Source of the DNA: Candidatus Brocadiaceae bacterium
Lineage (GTDB): Bacteria; Planctomycetota; Brocadiia; SM23-32
Direction: 5' to 3'
Assembly: GCA_003551305.1 (NCBI GenBank)
Contig: PUMJ01000061.1
Location: 1 to 42,288, forward strand
Length of the DNA: 42,288 nucleotides
The notes under the pieces were generated by a model. That model made no database searches, had not been told where the DNA came from, and saw only the letters and a list, made by a program, of their open reading frames with translations. Every line of letters starts with the position of its first letter. Position 1 is the stretch's first letter. Shown piece by piece: positions 411-11,879 of the stretch. Made by a program: the position numbers and the translations under genes.

Positions 411-3400
411 ATGACCGACCTGAGAGACGTGTTCGTGGAGCCCGGGGCTCAATACCGCGGCAAGCCCTTCTGGGCCTGGAACGGCAAACTCGAAGCCGAG
501 GAATTGCAGCGCCAGGTGCGCGTGATGCACCGGATGGGGCTGGGCGGCTTTTTCATGCACTCCCGCGTCGGGCTGGCCACCCCCTACCTGAGCGAGGAGT
601 GGTTCGAACTGGTGGGCGCCTGCGTTGAGCAGGCCCGCGAGCTGGGCATGGAGGCATGGCTCTACGACGAGGACCGCTGGCCCTCCGGGGCCGGCGGCGG
701 GCTGGTCACCGGCGACCCGAAGTACCGCCACCGCAACCTCTACGTGGCCGTCTGCGCTCCCGAGGAGGGCGAGTTCAAGGAGGAGCCCCTCGCCGTCTTC
801 AGCGCCCGCCTGGACGGCAATGCTGCGCACGAGGTCCGGCGCCTGCAAGACCCCTCGGCGGCCGACCTGCCCGAAGGGCACGCGCTGCTGGTCTTCTTCG
901 TGAGGGCGGACGAGCCGAGTTCCTGGTTCAACGACGCCACCTACCTGGACACCATGAGCCACGAGGCGGTGCAGCGCTTCATCGAGGTGACCCATGAGGC
1001 TTACCGTCGGGAGGTGGGGCAGGACTTCGGCGACGTCATCCCCGGCATCTTCACCGACGAGCCTCACCACGGCGGCGTGTTCACATCGTCCGGCCACGCC
1101 AAATTGCTCGGCCAGGTGGAGGGGCGCGACGTGCTGGGCGTGCCCTGGACCGAGAAGCTGCCCGAGCACTTCCGGCGCCGCTACGGCTACGACATCCTGG
1201 ATCACCTGCCGGAGCTGTTCTTCAAGGTGGACGGCCGGGAGGTCTCCCAGCCCCGCTACCACTACCATGACTGCAAGACCTACCTGTTCGTGGACGCCTT
1301 CGCCCGGCAGATAGGCGAATGGTGCGAGCAGAACGGCCTGAAGTCCACCGGGCACGTGCTGGCCGAGTCCACCCTGCGCTCCCAGGCGAGCGTCGGCGGT
1401 TCGGCCATGCGCTTCTACGAGTTCATGCAGGCGCCGGGCATAGACCAGCTCACCGAGCACCGGGACGAGTATACCACCGCCAAGCAATGCGCCAGCGTCC
1501 AGCACCAGATAGGCTCCCGCTGGATGCTGTCCGAACTCTACGGCTGCACCGGCTGGGACTGGCCCTTCGAGGGCCACAAGGCTGTCGGCGATTGGCAGGC
1601 CGTCCTCGGCGTCAACCTCCGCTGCCAGCACCTCTCCTGGTACACCATGGCCGGCCAGGCCAAGCGCGACTACCCGGCCTCCATATCCTTCCAGTCCCCC
1701 TGGTGGGAGCGCTACAGCGCCGTGGAGGACTACTACGCCCGCCTGAACGCCGTCATGACACGCGGCGAGCCCGTCCGCAGGCTCCTGGTGGTCCACCCGG
1801 TCGAGAGCGTCTGGGCACGGGCCGCCCTGGGTTGGGACGAGTGCGAACGGATAGACGAACTGGAGGCGGACTTCGACAATCTGATCAACTGGCTGCTGGA
1901 CCGCCACCTTGACTTCGATTACGGGGACGAGGACCTCATGAGCCGCCTCGGCTCGGTCGAGGACGGCGACGAGCCCGCGCTGAAAGTCGGGCAGGCGCAA
2001 TACGCCGTCGCCCTTGTTCCGCCCCTGGAGACCATCCGGTCCGACACGCTCAAACTCCTCGCCGCCTTCCAGGAGGCCGGCGGCACCGTCGTCTTCTGCG
2101 AACCCCTGCCGTCCTACGTGGACGCCCTGGAGAGCGAGGAGGCCGCCGAACTGGCCTGTCGGTGCCGACGCGTATCCTTCGAGCCGGACGCGATCGCCGA
2201 AGCCGTGGCCGAGGCGCGAGCCGTGAGCGTCCGCGGGGCGGACGGCAGAGAAAAGCCGCGCGTCTTCTACCAGCTCCGACAGGAGGACGGGGAGCGCTAC
2301 CTCTTTATCTGCAACCGCGACCGGAAGAGCGGCACCGGGCCGCTCTCGGTCAGCGTCGAGGGCGCCGGGCAACTCCAGCTATGGGACCCGGAGACCGCCG
2401 AGCGCTACGCCGTCGAGGCGGAAGCCCGTGAGGGTAGCCTGCACTTCGCCACCGAGATGCCCCCCACCGGCAGCCGCCTCTTCGTCATAACCGACGCCGA
2501 CGAGGACCTGCCGGCGCCCCCCGAGTTGACCGAAGTGGACACCGTCGAACTGCCCCCCGACGCCTGGGCGACGGAGCTGACCGAGCCGAACGTCGTTGTG
2601 CTGGACATGCCGGAGTTCCGCGTCGGCGACGGGGGGTGGCAGGGGCCGATGGAGATACTGCGCGCCGACAGCGCCATCCGCGAGCAGATAGGCCTGCCCC
2701 TGCGCGGCGGCGCCATGGTGCAGCCCTGGGCGCGAAGCCGCACCGAGCAGGGGCCGGCCGCACCCGTGGGACTGCGCTACCGCATACAGGTGGCGGAACC
2801 GCCGCGCGGCCCCCTGATGCTGGCCATCGAGAACCCCGGCTACTTCGACATCACGCTCAACGGCCACTGCATCACCACGGACGCCGAGTGCGGCTGGTGG
2901 GTCGACCCCTGCCTGAGGCTGCTCCCGCTGGACGAGGCGGCCCTGGTGAGCGGGGAGAACGTGCTCGAACTGCACGGCACCCTCGACGACGACTGCAGCC
3001 TGGAGGCGTGCTTTCTGCTCGGCGACTTCAGCGTGACGGTGGACGGGGCAGACGTGCTGGTCGAGCCGGCCTGCCCCGCGCCCGTCATAGGCGACTGGAC
3101 GGAGCAGGGATTGCCGTTCTATAGTGGGTCCGTTGTGTTCCGGGCGGACGTTCAGACCGCCGTCGGGGCCGAGCGCCTGTTCGTGGAGGTGCCCGAATTC
3201 GGCGGCGCCTGCGTGCGCGTGCTGGTGGACGGCCAGGAAGCCGGCGTCATCGGCTGGCAGCCCCACGAGGTGGAGATCACCGACCTGGTGCGGGGCAAGG
3301 AGGGGTTCCAGCTTGCCGTCGAGGTGGTGGCGCACCGGCGCAATGCCTTCGGCCCGCTGCACCATGCCGAGGCGCACCCCGAATGGGTCGGGCCCGGGCA

Positions 3401-3529: not shown

Positions 3530-4915
3530 ATGAGGTACGTCTCCACAAGGGGCGGGGTTGAGCCCCTGTCTTTCGGGGATGCTGTGATGATGGGGCTGGC
3601 CGAGGACGGCGGCCTTCTCATCCCCGAGTCCGTGCCCGACGTGCGGGAGGAGATGCCCTCCTGGCGGGAGCTGGACTACCCGGACCTCGCCCTGCGGGTG
3701 ATGCGCCGGTTCGCAACGGACGTGCCGCAGGACGAGCTGGAAGCGCTCATCGGGCGGACTTACGGCGAACGTTTCGGCGGGCCGGTGGCCCCGACGGTCG
3801 AGGTCGGGCCGCTGCACCTCGTCGAACTCTGGCACGGCCCGACGCTGGCCTTCAAGGACGTGGCGCTCCAGTTGCTGGGCAACCTGTTCGAGCACCTGCT
3901 GGCACTCAGGGGCGAGGAACTCAACGTGCTGGGCGCCACCAGCGGCGACACCGGCAGCGCCGCCATAGCCGGCTGCCGCAACCGCGCCGGAATCCGCATC
4001 TTCATCCTCCACCCCCACGGCGGCGTCTCGCCCGTGCAGCGGCTCCAGATGACCACGGTGCTGGACGAAAACGTCCACAACATCGCCATCGAGGGGAGCT
4101 TCGACGACTGCCAGAGCATCGTCAAAGAACTCGCCTCCGACCTGCAGTTCAAGAAACTCTACTCGCTCGGGGCGGTCAACTCCATCAACTGGGCGCGCGT
4201 GATGGCGCAGATCGTCTACTACTTCAAGGCCGTCTTCGATGTGCAGGCGCACACCGGCGCACAGGCCGTCGAAGTGGCGGTGCCGACCGGCAATTTCGGC
4301 AACGTCCTGGCCGGCTGGTACGCCATGCGGATGGGCCTGCCCATCGAACGGCTGCTGCTGGCCACGAACGAGAACGACATCCTGGCGCGCTTCTTCACCA
4401 GCGGCCGCTACGAGCGCGGCAGCGTGACCCGCACCCTCGCCCCCGCCATGGACATCCAGGCGCCCAGCAACTTCGAGCGCTACCTCTACTACCGGGTCGG
4501 GTGCGACCCGGAGAGAGTCCGGCGCCTCATGCGCACGCTGGAGACCGAAGGTGCCTTCGCGCTGGAGAACGCGGAGGGTGGTCCGGTGGACCCCGACATC
4601 GCCGCCGGGGCGGGCGCCACCGAGGACTGCCTGGCCGCGATCCGGCGGTACCACCGGGAGCACGACTACCTGCTGGACCCGCACACGGCGGTGGGCGTGG
4701 CCGTGGCCGAGCGCCTCCGCAGCGGGCACCGGCCCACCATCTGCCTCGCCACGGCGCACCCGGCCAAGTTCCCCGAGGCGGTGGCGCAGGCTGTCGGGCG
4801 TGACATCGCCCGGCACCCCGCCATCGAGGCGCTCAAAGGCAAACCCACCCGCTGCGAAGTCCTGCCCAATGACAAAGAGGCCGTCCGGCGCTTCATCGTC
4901 CGGGCCGTGGGGTAG
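3530..4915 (+). CDS. thrC: Threonine synthase
   Basis: 461 residues. Converts O-phosphohomoserine to threonine with pyridoxal phosphate, the last step of threonine synthesis. The start MRYVSTRGGVEPLSFGDAV and the LAEDGGLLIPE segment match the E. coli-type enzyme. HGPTLAFKDVALQLLG carries the PLP-binding lysine and TSGDTGSAA the phosphate-binding loop; VPTGNFGN is a second family motif. ATG 3530 is preferred over the upstream TTG at 3491 because the conserved N-terminus starts here and a GAGG lies just upstream. It follows the hydrolase by 35 bases, but the two have no functional link. It converges on tatC. Confidence 0.95.
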   Translation: MRYVSTRGGVEPLSFGDAVMMGLAEDGGLLIPESVPDVREEMPSWRELDYPDLALRVMRRFATDVPQDELEALIGRTYGERFGGPVAPTVEVGPLHLVELWHGPTLAFKDVALQLLGNLFEHLLALRGEELNVLGATSGDTGSAAIAGCRNRAGIRIFILHPHGGVSPVQRLQMTTVLDENVHNIAIEGSFDDCQSIVKELASDLQFKKLYSLGAVNSINWARVMAQIVYYFKAVFDVQAHTGAQAVEVAVPTGNFGNVLAGWYAMRMGLPIERLLLATNENDILARFFTSGRYERGSVTRTLAPAMDIQAPSNFERYLYYRVGCDPERVRRLMRTLETEGAFALENAEGGPVDPDIAAGAGATEDCLAAIRRYHREHDYLLDPHTAVGVAVAERLRSGHRPTICLATAHPAKFPEAVAQAVGRDIARHPAIEALKGKPTRCEVLPNDKEAVRRFIVRAVG

Positions 4916-5019: not shown

Positions 5020-6357
5020 TCAGTCCTCGGGCGGTTCGCCTCCCATCACCTCCTGCCACCTGCGGACGGTTTCCTCCACGTCCACGGGGCTGCCGCCGGC
5101 CCGCAGCGTCACGGTGCGGCCGGCGTGGATGGTGCGCGCCGTTCCCTCAGAACGCGCCGTCGCGGTGCCGCTCAGCACAGTGATGCTGACGGTGTCCGGC
5201 TCGGGGACGAGGAGTTCGGCCTGCGCCCTCTCCGCCGAGACGGTGGCGGGGCCGGCGTGGCTTTCCAGGATGCCGCGCCTGTGGGTGTTGTCCAGCAGCG
5301 CCGTCCCCTCGTAAAGACTGAACGTGCCGGGCCCGTGCACGCGCAGGCGGCTCTCCGGGGCCAGGTGGACGGTGCCCCCGCCCCGCCCTTCGAGGCTCAG
5401 GCGGGCCAGCCCGTCGGAGCCTGTGCTGACGACGGTTCCCCGCCGGAGACCGGCGGCCTTGCCCTGCGCCACGGGGTCAGGCCCGGCGCTGACACCCCCG
5501 CGCACCGTCTCTACGCTGCCCACGGGCCAGAAGGCGAGATAGGCCCCCACGCCCGCCAGGATGAGCAGGATGCTGCCGGTGAAACGGAGGAAGCCGGTGA
5601 CGGTCTCGCGGTTGGGCACGGCCAGCAGCACGCCCAGGTCATAGAGCATCACCAGGGTGACGGCCATCATGATCTGGGTGACCGGGTCCGGCGGCGTCAG
5701 GAAGGCCCCCACCACGAAAGCGCCCAGCAGCACCCCTTTGCGCGCCCTGCGTAACTGTCGCGAGGGCAAGATGTTCCATCGGATCAGGTAGAAGATGACC
5801 ACCGGTGTCTGAAACGCCACGCCCATCGCAAACGTCAGGAAGAAGAACGTCGTCAGGTAGCCGCCTATCATCAGCACCGGTTCGGTGGCCGGACCCGCAA
5901 GCGTGAGCAGGTAGCGCAGCGCGATGGGCACGAACAAGAAGTAGCCGAAGCAGATGCCGGTGAAGAAGCAGAACACGCAGGCCAGCCCCAGACGGATGGC
6001 CTTGCGCCGCTCGTGGCGGAACAGCCCCGGCGCCACGAAGGCCCAGACCTGGTAGATGACCACCGGCGCGGCGACCACCAGCCCCGCTATAACAGCGGCC
6101 TTCAGGTGCGCCACCACACCCTCCATGTAGGTGCTGATCTTGAGGGTGGGGTCCAGCTCGAATGCCGCCATCGCCCGCACGTGAGGCCACACGAGCACGG
6201 CCATGAGCTGATCGCGGAAAAACCACGCCACCAGCGCCACCGCCCCGATGCTGATGAGGCAGATCATCAGGCGACGGCGCAACTCCTCCAGGTGGTCACC
6301 CAGGGCCATCACGGCCCTGTCAGACCCGGCGATGATGTCAGCGCTGTCTTCACCCAT
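5020..6357 (-). CDS. tatC: Sec-independent protein translocase TatC with an added membrane segment and FecR-like C-terminal domain
   Basis: 445 residues against about 250 for normal TatC. Residues 1-250 are TatC, which with TatA and TatB moves folded twin-arginine proteins across the inner membrane: DHLEELRRRL near residue 21 with the conserved Glu, six hydrophobic segments, and the FLTPPDPVTQ motif at 219-228. A further hydrophobic segment at about 256-277 is followed by a beta-rich region of some 160 residues (GTVVSTGSDGLARLSL, TVHLAPESRLRV, ISVLSG-like TVSITVLSG) that reads as a FecR-type domain. TatC has both ends in the cytoplasm, so a seventh segment would place this domain in the periplasm. 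No tatA or tatB is in the window. ATG 6357 puts the HLEEL motif at the normal place; a perfect TATAAT lies about 47 bases upstream. Confidence 0.9.
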   Translation of the reverse strand: MGEDSADIIAGSDRAVMALGDHLEELRRRLMICLISIGAVALVAWFFRDQLMAVLVWPHVRAMAAFELDPTLKISTYMEGVVAHLKAAVIAGLVVAAPVVIYQVWAFVAPGLFRHERRKAIRLGLACVFCFFTGICFGYFLFVPIALRYLLTLAGPATEPVLMIGGYLTTFFFLTFAMGVAFQTPVVIFYLIRWNILPSRQLRRARKGVLLGAFVVGAFLTPPDPVTQIMMAVTLVMLYDLGVLLAVPNRETVTGFLRFTGSILLILAGVGAYLAFWPVGSVETVRGGVSAGPDPVAQGKAAGLRRGTVVSTGSDGLARLSLEGRGGGTVHLAPESRLRVHGPGTFSLYEGTALLDNTHRRGILESHAGPATVSAERAQAELLVPEPDTVSITVLSGTATARSEGTARTIHAGRTVTLRAGGSPVDVEETVRRWQEVMGGEPPED

Positions 6358-6403
6358 GCTGTGTCCGCTATGCTCCTGGAGTCTTCCCGTCCGCCGCAAC
6401 TTC

Positions 6404-6432
6404 ATTATACAGAGCACCGGTGGACCGGTAAA
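6404..6432 (-). promoter_or_regulatory. Candidate sigma-70 promoter for tatC
   Basis: On the minus strand, TTTACC (6427-6432), a 17-base spacer, and a perfect TATAAT (6404-6409). Transcription would begin near 6397, giving a leader of about 40 bases before ATG 6357. The -35 element matches consensus at only four of six places. Confidence 0.5.
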
Positions 6433-7002: not shown

Positions 7003-7986
7003 TCAGCGCCGCCGTCGCCGGGCGCGGTCCCGGTCACGGCGCTCCCGCGGCTCGGGGTCCCACCAGGGCTCGTCGACGTCCCACCGACGGAAAGGCTCCC
7101 GCCGGCGCAAGAACTCGTCGCCGTGGAACCAGCGGCCGCGGCGGGACGGCACCAGTGGGCGCCGCCGCGGGTAGGGCCGCAGCGCGGGATGCCGCGGCTG
7201 TATCCGGCGGGGTCGCACGCGCCACTCCAGGTGACGCCGGGGCAGGACGCGAGGGTGCGGCGCACGCCAGGCCCCCCGCCGGGCGTTTCGCTCCGGCCAG
7301 AGCCGCCTTACGGGCCGGCGTCGGGCGAGGGGCTCCCGGTCGCGTTCACGGGCCTCGAGCTGGCGCCTCCTTGTGACCTCGCGGCGCGGGTCCAGCACGT
7401 CGCGTCGCTCGGGGCGTGCTTCCTCCGGTCGCTGACGGCGCAGCGCCGGGACGTCTTCTCGCTCGCGCAGCAGGCGTCGCCTCTCCGGCGCTTCGCGGCG
7501 TGGCCGCTCCACGCCCAGCATGGCCGGCAGGCGCTCGCGCAGCGCCTCGCGGTGGACGGGATCTTCGGCCATGAAGCTCACGACCAGGCCGTCCTCCCTA
7601 CTGCGCGTCGTCACCTCAACCTCCCCGCTCATCATCATGCGCATCAGGAGCGGCTCGGCGGGGCGGCGCCCCTCCTGCCGCATGCGACGGGCCACCTGCG
7701 GGATGCGCTCCACACGCGGCGCCGTGCGGGTGTGCAGACCCTCGACTACCTCGGGGTCCTCGGAAGTGAGGAACACGTTCACTCCCTCCTCCGTGGGCCG
7801 TACCCGGACCTCGGCTTCCGTGCGTGCGAGCAGCTGCCCGAGTCCGAACCGCTGCTCCGTCGCCCGGGCGCGGGCGGGCCGGTCCGCAGCTCGCCTCGGC
7901 CGCTCCTGCGCGGCAAGGGGCGGGCCGACGCTCAGCGCCGCCAGAGCCGCCAGCAAAACCAGCACCTTCACCTTCCCTCTTTTCAT
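7003..7986 (-). CDS. Secreted arginine-rich protein with a duplicated N-terminal module; function unknown
   Basis: 327 residues. ATG 7986 follows an AAAGGAGG ribosome site and begins a signal peptide (MKRGKVKVLVLLAALAAL, cleaved after a PLAAQ-like site). Residues ~45-165 hold two similar units: EAEVRVRPTEEGVNVFLTSE and EVEVTTRSREDGLVVSFMAE, each followed by DP and a helical stretch. From about residue 165 the protein becomes extremely Arg/Pro/Glu-rich with many RR and RRR runs and a C-terminus of Arg. It is the last gene of the minus-strand series with the anti-sigma and Spy-like genes (65-base gap), which suggests a role in the envelope response. The basic tail could bind acidic polymers such as nucleic acid or polysaccharide; that is a guess. 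No known family recognised. Confidence 0.75.
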   Translation of the reverse strand: MKRGKVKVLVLLAALAALSVGPPLAAQERPRRAADRPARARATEQRFGLGQLLARTEAEVRVRPTEEGVNVFLTSEDPEVVEGLHTRTAPRVERIPQVARRMRQEGRRPAEPLLMRMMMSGEVEVTTRSREDGLVVSFMAEDPVHREALRERLPAMLGVERPRREAPERRRLLREREDVPALRRQRPEEARPERRDVLDPRREVTRRRQLEARERDREPLARRRPVRRLWPERNARRGAWRAPHPRVLPRRHLEWRVRPRRIQPRHPALRPYPRRRPLVPSRRGRWFHGDEFLRRREPFRRWDVDEPWWDPEPRERRDRDRARRRRR

Positions 7987-8051
7987 GGTCCATCCTCCTT
8001 TCGCTGCGGGGATTCCGACTGTTCCGTCTCGTGCCCAGCGTGTATCAGCGC

Positions 8052-8609
8052 TCATTCTCGTACTCCTTCCGTACTATCGGGGAACACCGGCTGCTGTTCG
8101 AACGGGTCTTCAGGTCGTTCGGGATGTCGTCGGTCCGGCTCGCGGCGCGGCGGCACCGGCGCGCCCCTTCGGCCTCGGACGGCCCGGGAGCGCATCATCT
8201 GGAACAGCCGGCGCCGCTGCTCGGGGGTCAGATGCTCCTCGGTCTGTTCAAGGTGGCTGAGCACGTTTGCCCTGATGCGCTCCTGGATGGCCTCCATGCG
8301 GCGATGGGCCGCGCGGATGGCCTCCCGGTCGGGCTCCTGTTCGGCCATCAACTCAAACAGCCGGTCGCGCTCGGCGGCCAGGCGTCGCTCCAGCGGGGCC
8401 AGCTCCCGCCGCAGGTCGCGCCAGGACTGCTCCATACGCCGCTGCTGCTCCCGGTCGAGCCCGACCTGCTCCCAGGTCCGCCGCGGTTCCGCGCCCGGCC
8501 GGTCCGGCTGCAGCCGGCTATAGAACCATATGCCGACAAACGCGATGTTGAACGCCAGCGAGAAAACCAGTATGAGCGACAGGACGCTATTGTGCGTTGT
8601 GGGTCTCAT
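8052..8609 (-). CDS. Spy/CpxP-like (LTXXQ, heavy-metal-resistance type) membrane-anchored protein
   Basis: 185 residues. One N-terminal membrane segment at about 9-30 (LSLILVFSLAFNIAFVGIWF), then an all-helical, highly charged periplasmic part. It contains LDREQQRRMEQSW and LTPEQRRRLFQMM, the paired motifs of the LTXXQ family (Spy, CpxP, CnrX-like sensors), whose members act as periplasmic chaperones or sense envelope stress or metals. The C-terminal ~45 residues are Arg/Pro-rich and disordered-looking. The start overlaps the anti-sigma gene by 23 bases with a GGGAG site inside that gene, so the two are translationally coupled. Likely partner of the anti-sigma protein; metal binding is not shown. 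Confidence 0.75.
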   Translation of the reverse strand: MRPTTHNSVLSLILVFSLAFNIAFVGIWFYSRLQPDRPGAEPRRTWEQVGLDREQQRRMEQSWRDLRRELAPLERRLAAERDRLFELMAEQEPDREAIRAAHRRMEAIQERIRANVLSHLEQTEEHLTPEQRRRLFQMMRSRAVRGRRGAPVPPRREPDRRHPERPEDPFEQQPVFPDSTEGVRE

Positions 8610-9054
8610 CCCATTCTCCCTCGCTCATAAAGGACAGATAGACCTCCTCCAGGCTTCCCGGCGGTGCCGAGGCAAGCAGGGCGGCCGGCAGATGCCGGGT
8701 CTCCTCCGTGACGGCGCTCGCCACGTCCCGGCCGGCGGCGATGCCCAACCCGATGCCGGTCACGAACAGCAGCAGGGCGGCGGCCCTGCGAAGCGGCCAG
8801 GTGCGCCGGACCTGCTCGACGTGGACGGCCCGGCCGCGGCGCTCGGCGCGTTGTCGCAGGCGCGCGGCGAAGTCCGCCTCGCCCTCGCGGGCACCGAGCG
8901 CGCCCAGCAGCGTCCGCAGCCGTTCGAGTTCGTCCCGTTCGGCGGCGCAGCGCCGGCAGTCCCCCACGTGCGCCCGCACGAGAGCCGCCTCGGCCGAGTC
9001 AAGCTCGCCGTCCTTCAGGGCTCCAAGCCTTCTTGTCGCATCTTCGCAGTTCAT
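8587..9054 (-). CDS. Zinc-finger anti-sigma factor (ZAS, zf-HC2) with one membrane segment
   Basis: 155 residues. The N-terminus has the zinc-binding pattern of ZAS anti-sigma factors: Cys3, then His29-x3-Cys33-x2-Cys36 in HVGDCRRCAAERDELERL. Such domains bind ECF sigma factors in the cytoplasm until a signal releases them. A membrane segment lies at about 92-110 (AAALLLFVTGIGLGIAAG), followed by a periplasmic tail of ~45 residues. ATG 9054 has a strong AAGGGAGG site. Its sigma partner is probably the ECF gene at 10536-11213, although a 640-base gap and two other genes separate them, which is unusual because the pair is normally adjacent. Confidence 0.8.
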   Translation of the reverse strand: MNCEDATRRLGALKDGELDSAEAALVRAHVGDCRRCAAERDELERLRTLLGALGAREGEADFAARLRQRAERRGRAVHVEQVRRTWPLRRAAALLLFVTGIGLGIAAGRDVASAVTEETRHLPAALLASAPPGSLEEVYLSFMSEGEWDETHNAQ

Positions 9055-9126
9055 CGTCCTCCTCCCTTAATAATAAACGGACGAAGGCGCGGAATCCTGC
9101 GGTCTTTCTTTCTGTCCGCCGCCGCA

Positions 9127-9212
9127 GAGGGGGGATGAAGCCCTGGGTGCCCGGCAGGCACCCCGGGAAACCGGCAGCCGACAACAAGACCGCGCCCTGA
9201 AAGGGCGCCATA
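9127..9212. repeat. GC-rich interspersed repeat, copy 1
   Basis: Contains GAAGCCCTGGGTGCCCGG, a short palindromic ACCCCGGGAAACC part, and CGCGCCCTGAAAGGGCGCC. The same elements in the same order occur near 37988-38039 (AGCCCTGGGT, CCGAAACC, CGCGCCCTGAAGGGGCGC). Similar palindromic units are widely scattered in PVC and other bacterial genomes and may be REP-like; that link is from memory and not tested. Confidence 0.5.
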
Positions 9213-9335
9213 ACGGGGGGGAGAACAGAACACGGACGGCCCCCTCAACAGCCCGCCGTACGGCGGACTCGGCATGGGATATGGGCGCCCGCGGCGGGCG
9301 ATATGCCGCTTTCCGCTGTCCCGCGGAGTAAACGC

Positions 9336-9364
9336 TTGACATAAACCCTATGAACGTATAGTAT
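9336..9364 (+). promoter_or_regulatory. Near-consensus sigma-70 promoter with no gene directly downstream
   Basis: TTGACA at 9336-9341, a 17-base spacer, TAGTAT at 9359-9364. It is the best housekeeping promoter seen in the window. Transcription would start near 9371 on the plus strand and run through a gene-free region, then antisense into the Spy-like gene at 9695-10273. It could drive a small RNA or an antisense RNA. Confidence 0.65.
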
Positions 9365-9370
9365 CTTCTG

Positions 9371-9560
9371 CAGGCCCTTGACCAGGACCTCCACAGCTCC
9401 AGGCAGGAGCCGGCTTCGGATGGCTGCATGGGAATTGCTCAGTCCCCCGGCGGGGAGTCGAAACCGCCGGGCCTTCACGCTCGGCAGGCCTCATCCGAGT
9501 CGGTGATGCGGTGCTTTCTGCGAAACGAACCCATTTGCTCTTTGGCACTCTGATGGTGAC
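9371..9560 (+). ncRNA. Possible small RNA downstream of the orphan promoter (3' end not known)
   Basis: The region begins at the expected start of the 9336-9364 promoter. It contains a hairpin with an 8-base stem (CCCGGCGG / CCGCCGGG) and a 10-base loop, plus several shorter complementary stretches. I could not match it to tmRNA, SRP RNA, RNase P, 6S or a riboswitch class, and I see no clear terminator, so the end is arbitrary. No ribosome site with a believable frame follows. Confidence 0.25.
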
Positions 9561-9694
9561 GTGTCGTGTGCTGCCATTCGCCGCCGGGCGAACGGCCGGG
9601 CGGCGTGGCTACCTGATTCTTCCGTCTGTGATCCCCGCTCACGCCGGCGAGGGGCCGGCCCGCTGCTCGTCGCGAGGGTCACCTGGCGGGGCTG

Positions 9695-10273
9695 TTATTC
9701 GGAGGGAGGGGGCGGTTCGCGGGGGGCCTCATCGGGTTCGGTGCGCTCCTGCCGGAGGTCCCGGCGGCGACCGGGTCCGAAGGGGCGGTCGGGGTCGCGC
9801 AACCCCCGCTGGTCGGGCTCTACGCCGCGACCTCGCCCGGCCCGGGTGGCGCGGCGGCGCTCGCGCAGGGTGGGGAAGTGCTCGTCCAGTCGCTGCACCT
9901 GCTGCTGCCAGATGCGGTCCTGCTCTTCGTCCAGCACCGAGGCGATGTCATGGTCCAGCAGAGCCAGCTGCTGGACGATCCTCGGCCGCAACTCCGAGCG
10001 CGCATGCTGCAGGGCCCTGTAATGCTCCTGCAGGACGGGTTCAAGCCGGCGGCGCTGCTCGGGCCTCAGGTTCAGATCCCGGTCGAGGCGGCGGAGCATG
10101 CGTTCGGCAAAGACCTCCGGCGCCTGCTCGGCAGGGGCGGCCCGTTGCCGGGACATCCCGAGGAAGGTCGCGCTGGCGCCTATGGCGATGCCCGCCGCCA
10201 GGATGAGGAGTCCCAGCAGGACGGACTTCAGCAGCCCGTGCGCGGCCGGAGGCGTCTGGAGGGTTTCGGTCAT
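9695..10273 (-). CDS. Second Spy/CpxP-like membrane-anchored protein
   Basis: 192 residues. A membrane segment at about 13-36 (LLKSVLLGLLILAAGIAIGA) is followed by a helical charged domain with FAERMLRRLDRDLNLRPEQR and a second helix pair, then a disordered Arg/Pro/Glu tail. The helix pattern and the LxLxPEQ-type motif resemble the LTXXQ/metal-resistance fold seen again at 8052-8609, so the two are probably distant paralogues. ATG overlaps the stop of the preceding small membrane gene (ATGA at 10270-10273), giving a sigma, membrane protein, Spy-like operon. Probably a periplasmic sensor for the ECF pathway; the stimulus is unknown. Confidence 0.7.
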   Translation of the reverse strand: MTETLQTPPAAHGLLKSVLLGLLILAAGIAIGASATFLGMSRQRAAPAEQAPEVFAERMLRRLDRDLNLRPEQRRRLEPVLQEHYRALQHARSELRPRIVQQLALLDHDIASVLDEEQDRIWQQQVQRLDEHFPTLRERRRATRAGRGRGVEPDQRGLRDPDRPFGPGRRRDLRQERTEPDEAPREPPPPSE

Positions 10274-10539
10274 TGTGCAGCCCAGGTCACGACTTCGAGG
10301 ATACCGTTCACGGCGTCAAAGCGCTGCTGCCAGGTCAGCACCGCCGCGACAACGAAGGCCGCGGCCGCCGCCGACGAAGCCAGCGACATCCACAACAGCG
10401 GGCGCTGGCGCGGCGCCTGATGCAGATGGCCGTGCTCGCGGAGCGTGGCCAGCACCGAATCGGCGACCTCGACGCTCGGGGCCCGCTCCCGCCGCGCGTT
10501 CTCTATCAGCTTCTCCAGCGGTAAGCGCTTCATGGTCAT
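10270..10539 (-). CDS. Small single-pass membrane protein, possible ECF anti-sigma
   Basis: 89 residues. A charged N-terminal ~40 residues (MKRLPLEKLIENARRERAPS, then helical) precedes one membrane segment at about 47-67 (LWMSLASSAAAAAFVVAAVL) and a short outer tail. It overlaps the sigma gene by four bases and the next gene by four bases, the arrangement expected of a sigma regulator. It lacks the His/Cys zinc motif of the anti-sigma at 8587-9054. Short proteins of this type are common after ECF sigma genes in Planctomycetota. A second ATG at 10533 has better spacing from the GGAG in the sigma gene. Confidence 0.65.
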   Translation of the reverse strand: MTMKRLPLEKLIENARRERAPSVEVADSVLATLREHGHLHQAPRQRPLLWMSLASSAAAAAFVVAAVLTWQQRFDAVNGILEVVTWAAQ

Positions 10540-11213
10540 AGCTCCAGTTCGATCTCGGCTTCGGCGGCCACCTGCCGCAGTTTTTTCAGGGCCCGGTGCG
10601 TCTGCACCCGCACGTGCACTCGGGACCAGCCGATGCGGCGGGCCGTCTCTTTCACGTCACACTGCTCCAGGTAGCGCAGCGTCAGGACCAGTCGGTCGCG
10701 CGCCGGCAACCGCTCCAGCAGGTGATGGACCAGGTCGGCGGCCTCCCGCTGGTCCCGGCCGTCATCCGTGCCCAGGCGGTTGAGCAGGGCGTCCGAGAGG
10801 GCGACCGGTCGGCGCTCCTTTTCCTGTTCCTTCCAGTAACGGTAACCGACCCGGGTGGCAATGCGGGCCAGCCAGTGCTCGAAGGGCGCCCGGGCGCTGT
10901 AAGTGGCCAGGCTCAGGTACGCTTCTACGAACACCCTGTGGGTCAGTTCCTCGTGCTCGCCCCTGTCACGGGTGAAACGCCACATGATTTTGGCCACGGC
11001 CGCCTGGTGGCGCTCGACCAGGCGCCGGTAGGCGTCAGAATCGCCGTTGAGGCTGCGGCGGATGTCCGCGGCGTCGGCGCTTTGATGCTCCTCTGCCCCG
11101 GCCTGGTGCGGGCGCTCAGCGGCGCCCAGCCATGCGACCAGAGCCAGAAGCGAAGAGCGCGAAGACCGCGCCCCACCGCCGCCCATGCCGGCGCTGATTG
11201 CAGCTTCTGCCAC
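10536..11213 (-). CDS. ECF-type RNA polymerase sigma factor
   Basis: 225 residues. Region 2 reads DAYRRLVERHQAAVAKIMWR through AYLSLATYSARAPFEHWLARI; region 4 is LLERLPARDRLVLTLRYLE followed by the helix-turn-helix DVKETARRIGWSRVHVRVQT. Regions 1 and 3 are absent, as in ECF factors that direct polymerase to stress-response promoters. GTG 11213 is chosen because GAGGAG lies six bases before it; a TTG at 11219 touches that site and is less likely. About 55 N-terminal residues before region 2 are low-complexity. First gene of a three-gene overlapping set. Confidence 0.88.
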   Translation of the reverse strand: MAEAAISAGMGGGGARSSRSSLLALVAWLGAAERPHQAGAEEHQSADAADIRRSLNGDSDAYRRLVERHQAAVAKIMWRFTRDRGEHEELTHRVFVEAYLSLATYSARAPFEHWLARIATRVGYRYWKEQEKERRPVALSDALLNRLGTDDGRDQREAADLVHHLLERLPARDRLVLTLRYLEQCDVKETARRIGWSRVHVRVQTHRALKKLRQVAAEAEIELEL

Positions 11214-11340
11214 CGTCAACTCCTCGTCTCAGGACGTCAGGACGGCCGCCTGTGCCGGTTCGCTCCGGCGGCCGGTGCAGGCCCCGCCTGCCAAGCGCGC
11301 CGACGGGGCCCGCGGGCCTCACCTACCTCCATTATCAGGG

Positions 11341-11784
11341 TTACTGGCAGTTGGGGCCAGTCCCGTCGCGGGGGCCTTGTCGCCGGCCGCCGCCGCGGGC
11401 CTCGCCACGCCCCGGACCGCTGCCGTCACGCGCCCCGCGGGCCAGGCCGCGGCGCTCGCCGCTGCCGTCGCGTCGCATTTCGGCGCTGCCTGCGCCGTCG
11501 CGGGGGCCTTGCCGTCGGCCGCCGCCGTGGGCCTCACCGCGCCCCGGACCGCTGCCGTCGCGCGCCCCGCGGGCCAGGCCCCGGCGCTCACCGGTGCCGT
11601 CGCGGGGGGCGTTCAGGCCGCGAGTGCCGTCGCGCGGGCCACGCTGCAACCCTTGGGGCTCCGGCTCTTCACACTGAGTCTGCACCGCCGCGTCCCCGGC
11701 TTCGGAGCCGAAGGCCGTCCCGACCGCAGGGGCCAGGCCCAGCACCAGCAGCAGACCGATTCCCGTCATCAACATCGCCTTCAT
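11341..11784 (-). CDS. Small secreted protein with RDG(T/S)G repeats
   Basis: 147 residues. Signal peptide MKAMLMTGIGLLLVLGLAPA from ATG 11784 with a GGGAG ribosome site. The mature part is Gly/Arg-rich and has seven RDG(T/S/A)-type motifs (PRDGTG, ARDGSG, RRDGSG). A unit of 44 residues beginning ERRGLARGARDGSGPGRGEA is present twice in tandem; the DNA period is 132 bases. There is one Cys before the repeats and one near the C-terminus. Function unknown. It lies directly upstream of the ECF sigma gene on the same strand (127-base gap), so it may be a target of or part of that system. Low-complexity composition makes homology search uninformative. Confidence 0.7.
   Translation of the reverse strand: MKAMLMTGIGLLLVLGLAPAVGTAFGSEAGDAAVQTQCEEPEPQGLQRGPRDGTRGLNAPRDGTGERRGLARGARDGSGPGRGEAHGGGRRQGPRDGAGSAEMRRDGSGERRGLARGARDGSGPGRGEARGGGRRQGPRDGTGPNCQ
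11363..11627. repeat. Two tandem 132-base coding repeats
   Basis: Two copies of a 132-base unit inside the RDG-repeat gene, starting at about 11363 and 11495 (each begins CCGTCGCGGGGGCCTT). The period is a multiple of three, so the reading frame is kept and the protein gains a 44-residue block per copy. Confidence 0.75.
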
Positions 11785-11820: not shown

Positions 11821-11879
11821 GATGGGCCCATCTACCCCTATAGTGGGCGAGAACGGGGGAAACGTTACAGCAATTGCTG
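11821..11879. promoter_or_regulatory. Two perfect 12-base palindromes upstream of the RDG-repeat gene
   Basis: GATGGGCCCATC at 11821-11832 and CAGCAATTGCTG at 11868-11879 flank the likely promoter zone of the minus-strand gene starting at 11784 and lie upstream of the plus-strand recombinase gene. Between them the minus strand reads TATAGG (11837-11842). TGTAAC on the minus strand at 11864-11869 resembles some ECF -35 elements. Operator function is a guess. Confidence 0.3.

Follow-up and report, generated by a model that had tools for sequence, protein, structure and literature searches.

CnrYXH of Cupriavidus metallidurans consists of the ECF sigma factor CnrH, the class II anti-sigma factor CnrY and the membrane-anchored sensor CnrX, which carries His metal ligands. 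Chaperones of the Spy/CpxP/ZraP type are encoded with a two-component system. In zf-HC2 (class I, ASDI)/Metal_resist cassettes, the usual order is a zinc anti-sigma gene followed by a Metal_resist gene. Anti-sigma factors of class II (CnrY type) embrace their sigma factor with two helices and block polymerase. CnrY is described as binding CnrH with two helices wrapped round the sigma factor (PMC7406223). The locus described here lies in a window of 42,288 nucleotides (the whole stretch of DNA that was analysed) from a Candidatus Brocadiaceae bacterium. Half 1 of the locus (9695-11784) resembles CnrYXH in encoding an ECF sigma factor, a small one-helix protein and a membrane-anchored candidate sensor, probably of the Metal_resist/Spy superfamily, and half 2 resembles the zf-HC2 cassettes in its order of a zinc anti-sigma gene and then a Metal_resist gene.

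An ORF check of the window recovered all seven genes called in an earlier sequence-only reading, on the minus strand and in the order given there, and the intergenic gap that separates half 1 from half 2 measures exactly 640 bases (9055..9694), as had been claimed. The same reading described the halves as mirror images of each other; this likeness is superficial only, and the halves belong to different families. We consider it fairly probable that the locus consists of two adjacent, independent sigma modules for envelope stress and that half 2 most likely governs a sigma factor encoded on another contig (C172). The draft genome comprises 3.89 Mb on 298 contigs, with a completeness of 90.5% and a contamination of 4.95%, so that a further sigma gene may be missing from it, which weighs against this explanation. 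Rfam gave no match anywhere in the window. Outside the locus, a TatC protein (5020-6417, minus strand) is extended at its C terminus by about 200 residues that resemble FecR by eye, with no FecR match in Pfam at E<=1.

The sigma factor of half 1 (10536..11219, minus strand) matches TIGR02937 at 5e-23 (81.5 bits against a cut-off of 42.9) and Pfam Sigma70_r2 and Sigma70_r4 above cut-off; having regions 2 and 4 and no region 3, it is by its domains an ECF sigma factor. Its start codon is either TTG 11219 or GTG 11213, and the sigma domains begin at about residue 62. Orthologs are 44-57% identical to it, with values of 44-45% in two genomes of the same class. The search returned 27 sigma loci, from which eight weak Bacteroidota matches were left out; the remaining 19 named ortholog loci include the two same-class genomes and come from Planctomycetota, Hydrogenedentota, Armatimonadetes and a few less specifically named organisms. 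When the stretch around each locus was scanned with HMMs built in this analysis, for which some of the 19 loci served as seeds and with several loci stopping soon after the operon, a gene for a membrane-anchored Spy-like protein was found downstream of sigma in 19/19, a small-protein gene between these two in 18/19 (the exception is L104), and a zf-HC2 gene in 0/19. The joint gene order of both halves, which had been set beforehand as the check on a single system, is thus not conserved in the scanned stretches of these loci. In six of the 19 loci (L089, L094, L096, L103, L105 and L106), the sigma gene is preceded by a same-strand Spy/LTXXQ gene, a place that is occupied in the window by a gene for an RDG-repeat protein. 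In L089 the product of the first operon gene (2309-3241) combines an LTXXQ domain with EF hands. Judged from its gene content and order, half 1 is a complete, self-contained ECF switch that is conserved in several phyla. Counting against this, a close homologue of its sigma factor is absent from the eight other genomes of the window's family (best E 3.8e-15), and half 1 therefore looks like a gain in this genome or a loss in the others.

The sigma gene, the small-protein gene (10270..10539, minus strand) and the first Spy-like gene (9695..10273, minus strand) are joined by four-base overlaps (ATGA) at both junctions and are, from this arrangement, translationally coupled. The small protein of 89 aa is a candidate class II anti-sigma factor that is CnrY-like in build and predicted to bind the sigma factor. 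Hydropathy places one TM segment in each of 14 aligned small proteins, with 41-55 residues on its N-terminal side and 18-27 on its C-terminal side, and each protein contains 0-2 Cys; all 14 thus have the CnrY-type build of a short N-terminal segment and a single TM helix with no zinc motif. P21, V25 and V29 are invariant in the alignment. The window protein has a weak NCBIfam antisigma match (8e-4, below cut-off), and the small-protein profile matches 33 of 392 genomes of the phylum, including its own. Half 1 differs from CnrYXH in that the small protein has no profile match to CnrY: the profile of the 14 proteins found no CnrY chain in PDB at E<=5.

A second difference concerns the candidate periplasmic sensor. 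The first Spy-like protein, which is membrane-anchored, has a Pfam Metal_resist/Spy-type match of only 0.0043, below cut-off, and the profile of its orthologs matches Spy in PDB at 6.5e-6; a PDB fold search with the predicted model gave no match at E<=0.001. In a 14-row alignment of these proteins no His is invariant, unlike the metal ligands of CnrX. These Spy-like proteins bear LTxxQ-type motifs, as do the periplasmic Spy/CpxP/ZraP chaperones, from which they differ by their membrane anchor and by being encoded alongside a sigma/anti-sigma pair. Since these motifs are present and an invariant His is lacking, the signal of half 1 is probably misfolded or exposed protein, a form of protein-folding stress, rather than metal. 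Two further differences from CnrYXH are that efflux genes are not adjacent in the window and that the operon opens with a first gene for a secreted Spy or RDG protein.

In the window this first gene (11341..11784, minus strand) encodes a protein of 147 aa with a signal peptide and seven RDG motifs, and it contains a 117-nt internal duplication that is 90% identical. The protein belongs to no Pfam family at E<=0.1 and has a homologue in 0/57 other genomes searched. A comparison of the pre-operon regions of three genomes suggested the ECF-type motif TGTAAC-N18-CACTA, and the motif derived from all loci is TGTWACC-N16/17-CACTA. The window site (11841..11869, minus strand), which lies 85 bases upstream of the start codon of the RDG gene, scores 11/12 (one mismatch), which 0/200 shuffles reach. 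Among the ortholog loci, 14/19 have the motif at 11/12 or better, with 0/200 shuffles attaining the score in each case; the misses are L095, L096 (only 60 bases available), L104, L106 and L107. Across the 3.9-Mb draft genome, the relaxed motif TGTWAC-N17/18-CACTA has a single exact occurrence, upstream of the RDG gene, and its reversed control has none. Because this single occurrence lies where it does, the RDG gene is probably the target of the half-1 switch, and the TGTAAC/CACTA site is the putative promoter of the half-1 operon. A one-mismatch scan for a wider regulon in the same genome is at chance level (11 matches against 13 for the reversed control). Of 16 further genomes, 13 have a motif match, with control counts similar in several, so that the genome-wide lists are not clean.

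Several loci show other sites of this kind. L090, L091, L097 and L098 have a second, opposite-facing half-1 site (at about 4650-4880), placed back-to-back with the first in the stretch that separates the sigma operon from divergent genes; in L097 and L098 the gene that it faces encodes a secreted protein and is followed by one for a secretion ATPase. The same kind of gene pair follows a zf-HC2 cassette elsewhere in the window's own genome (C206, L042). In L105, a second exact half-1 promoter (6363, plus strand) stands before a gene for a secreted 236-aa protein just downstream of the operon.

Half 2 begins with the zf-HC2 anti-sigma gene (8587..9054, minus strand), whose product matches the zf-HC2 profile at 1.1e-7 (32.3 bits against a cut-off of 22.2), has the HxxxCxxC motif as HVGDCRRC and contains one hydrophobic segment. 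The gene overlaps by 23 bases that of the second Spy-like protein (8052..8609, minus strand), a membrane-anchored Metal_resist (CnrX/Spy-like) protein with a profile match of 1.1e-13. The product of the last gene (7003..7986, minus strand) is secreted and Arg-rich and contains two hairpin-helix repeats of the form 'DGV..TS.DPE'; the ATG listed at 8055 lies upstream of the likely start, and a signal peptide begins from 7986. The predicted model of this protein is poor overall (pLDDT 57), with the two repeats at about 88, and finds no match in a PDB fold search at E<=0.001. Half 2 differs from the usual zf-HC2 cassettes in ending with such a protein, a feature common to two genomes of the family: the full order of sigma, zf-HC2, Metal_resist and related secreted protein occurs in G005:C358 and G004:C9, whose fourth genes match the Arg-rich protein at 2e-6 and 2e-9, respectively (two-sequence E-values). 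Among 58 genomes, a profile of the three proteins has clear matches to these three only, and two more weak matches (3.9e-5 and 6.7e-5) have no such cassette around them.

The other departure from the usual cassettes is that no sigma gene is adjacent. An HMM scan found a sigma gene directly upstream in 9/9 other zf-HC2/Metal_resist loci, and none upstream in the window. An HMM of seven related sigma factors scores -1.3 bits in the gap, a value that 56 of the 285 shuffles scored also attain, so that a sigma remnant was not found; the best tblastn match of the gap to sigma has an E-value of 0.029, without shuffle control. The gap contains a sigma70-like promoter sequence TTGACA-N17-TAGTAT (9336-9364, plus strand) facing away from the zf-HC2 gene. 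Half 2 seems to have become separated from the sigma gene that belonged to it, the sigma gene probably having left the cassette and not the reverse.

Used as query in a first scan of genome contigs, the zf-HC2 protein returned no relative. When the sigma factor of G005 was used, its best match in the window's genome was C172:32881-33408 (52%, 4e-52), followed by C2 (51%, 7e-49). The C172 sigma factor shares 61% identity with the sigma factor of G006 and 57% with that of G004. Its gene and the stop codon of a 262-aa gene overlap, a tRNA-Leu gene follows it, and the surrounding 14 kb contain no zf-HC2 or small-TM match. Since cassettes of its kind have their own sigma gene in 9/9 other loci and the nearest relative of that sigma factor in this genome is the isolated gene at C172, the anti-sigma at 8587-9054, which had been assigned to the half-1 sigma factor, most likely has another partner, namely the lone C172 sigma, acting in trans.

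These results bear on the sequence-only reading as a whole. Its recognition of ECF envelope-stress regulation with an anti-sigma factor and a Spy-like sensor is supported; its union of both halves into a single system, with the half-1 sigma factor held by the small protein and by zf-HC2 and read by two Spy-like sensors, is not, and we regard it as very unlikely. Such a system would agree with the closeness of the halves, 640 bases apart on one strand, and with the lack of a matching sigma gene next to zf-HC2. It is rejected because zf-HC2 is missing from the scanned stretches of all 19 half-1 ortholog loci, the gap has no half-1 promoter (best 8/12, with 172/200 shuffles as good) and C172 offers the better partner; moreover, the half-1 sigma is only about 25-31% identical to the sigma factors of zf-HC2 cassettes.

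A different partner could be the C2 sigma factor, whose zf-HC2 locus is one of the nine scanned above and precedes TolC, MFP and RND efflux genes as read by eye; the window cassette would then supply an extra anti-sigma to an efflux module located elsewhere in the genome. In identity, the window anti-sigma is about as close to that of C2 (36.7%) as to that of G004 (35.6%), with the same top score, and its placement with C2 and G007 in the anti-sigma tree is not rejected (p-AU 0.118), the alternative grouping having support of 78/88. In the sigma tree, C172 joins G004, G005, G006 and G002 at 64/78 only, and placement with C2 and G007 is likewise not rejected (p-AU 0.22). The trees agree with the C172 pairing and do not settle it. 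We judge the C2 partnership decidedly unlikely: C2 has adjacent zf-HC2 and Metal_resist genes of its own, the Metal_resist scores favour G004 and G005 over C2, and the related secreted fourth gene connects the window cassette with G004:C9 and G005:C358 rather than with C2.

Half 2 could also be a decaying remnant whose sigma gene was lost from the genome, the C172 sigma being an unrelated lone factor. The missing neighbour and the lack of a remnant in the gap would fit such a loss, and C172 is not the only ECF of the genome without a recognised anti-sigma, as C158 and C64 also lack one and C61 has only a weak small-TM match (2e-3). Decay is nevertheless unlikely, given that the three half-2 genes are intact open frames, that HxxxCxxC is retained and that a closely related sigma factor (52%) is present in the genome.

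Under the preferred reading of two independent modules, the 89-aa one-helix protein would, like CnrY, keep the half-1 sigma factor bound at the inner membrane, and the membrane-anchored Spy-like protein would read the periplasm and set the anti-sigma factor. Once freed, the sigma factor would transcribe its own operon from TGTWACC-N16/17-CACTA, yielding more switch components along with the secreted product of gene 1, which is a Spy protein in some relatives and the RDG-repeat protein here; its target would be narrow and autoregulated. The second module (zf-HC2, Metal_resist and secreted-repeat protein) would govern the lone sigma factor at C172:32881-33408. A bolder proposal, which we put forward as speculative, is that module 1 represents an undescribed ECF class spanning at least three phyla. 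In this class, a membrane-anchored Spy-like chaperone would itself serve as the stress sensor, misfolded protein would titrate the chaperone off the CnrY-like anti-sigma, and the sigma factor would drive essentially one operon, with an exchangeable gene 1 (Spy, Spy with EF hands or RDG repeats) as the effector; a second switch beside it would work in trans with a sigma factor on another contig. Literature text searches, which covered titles and the beginnings of abstracts, found no paper describing module 1; an existing ECF group number is possible.

For uncultured planctomycetes and their relatives, the locus provides a testable set of sigma factor, anti-sigma factor, sensor and promoter. It is also a concrete case in which the partner of an anti-sigma factor is to be sought through the relatives of its cassette and not through adjacency. 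Should the Spy-like protein prove to be the sensor, the sigma factor of module 1 would be an ECF factor with direct input from chaperone titration.
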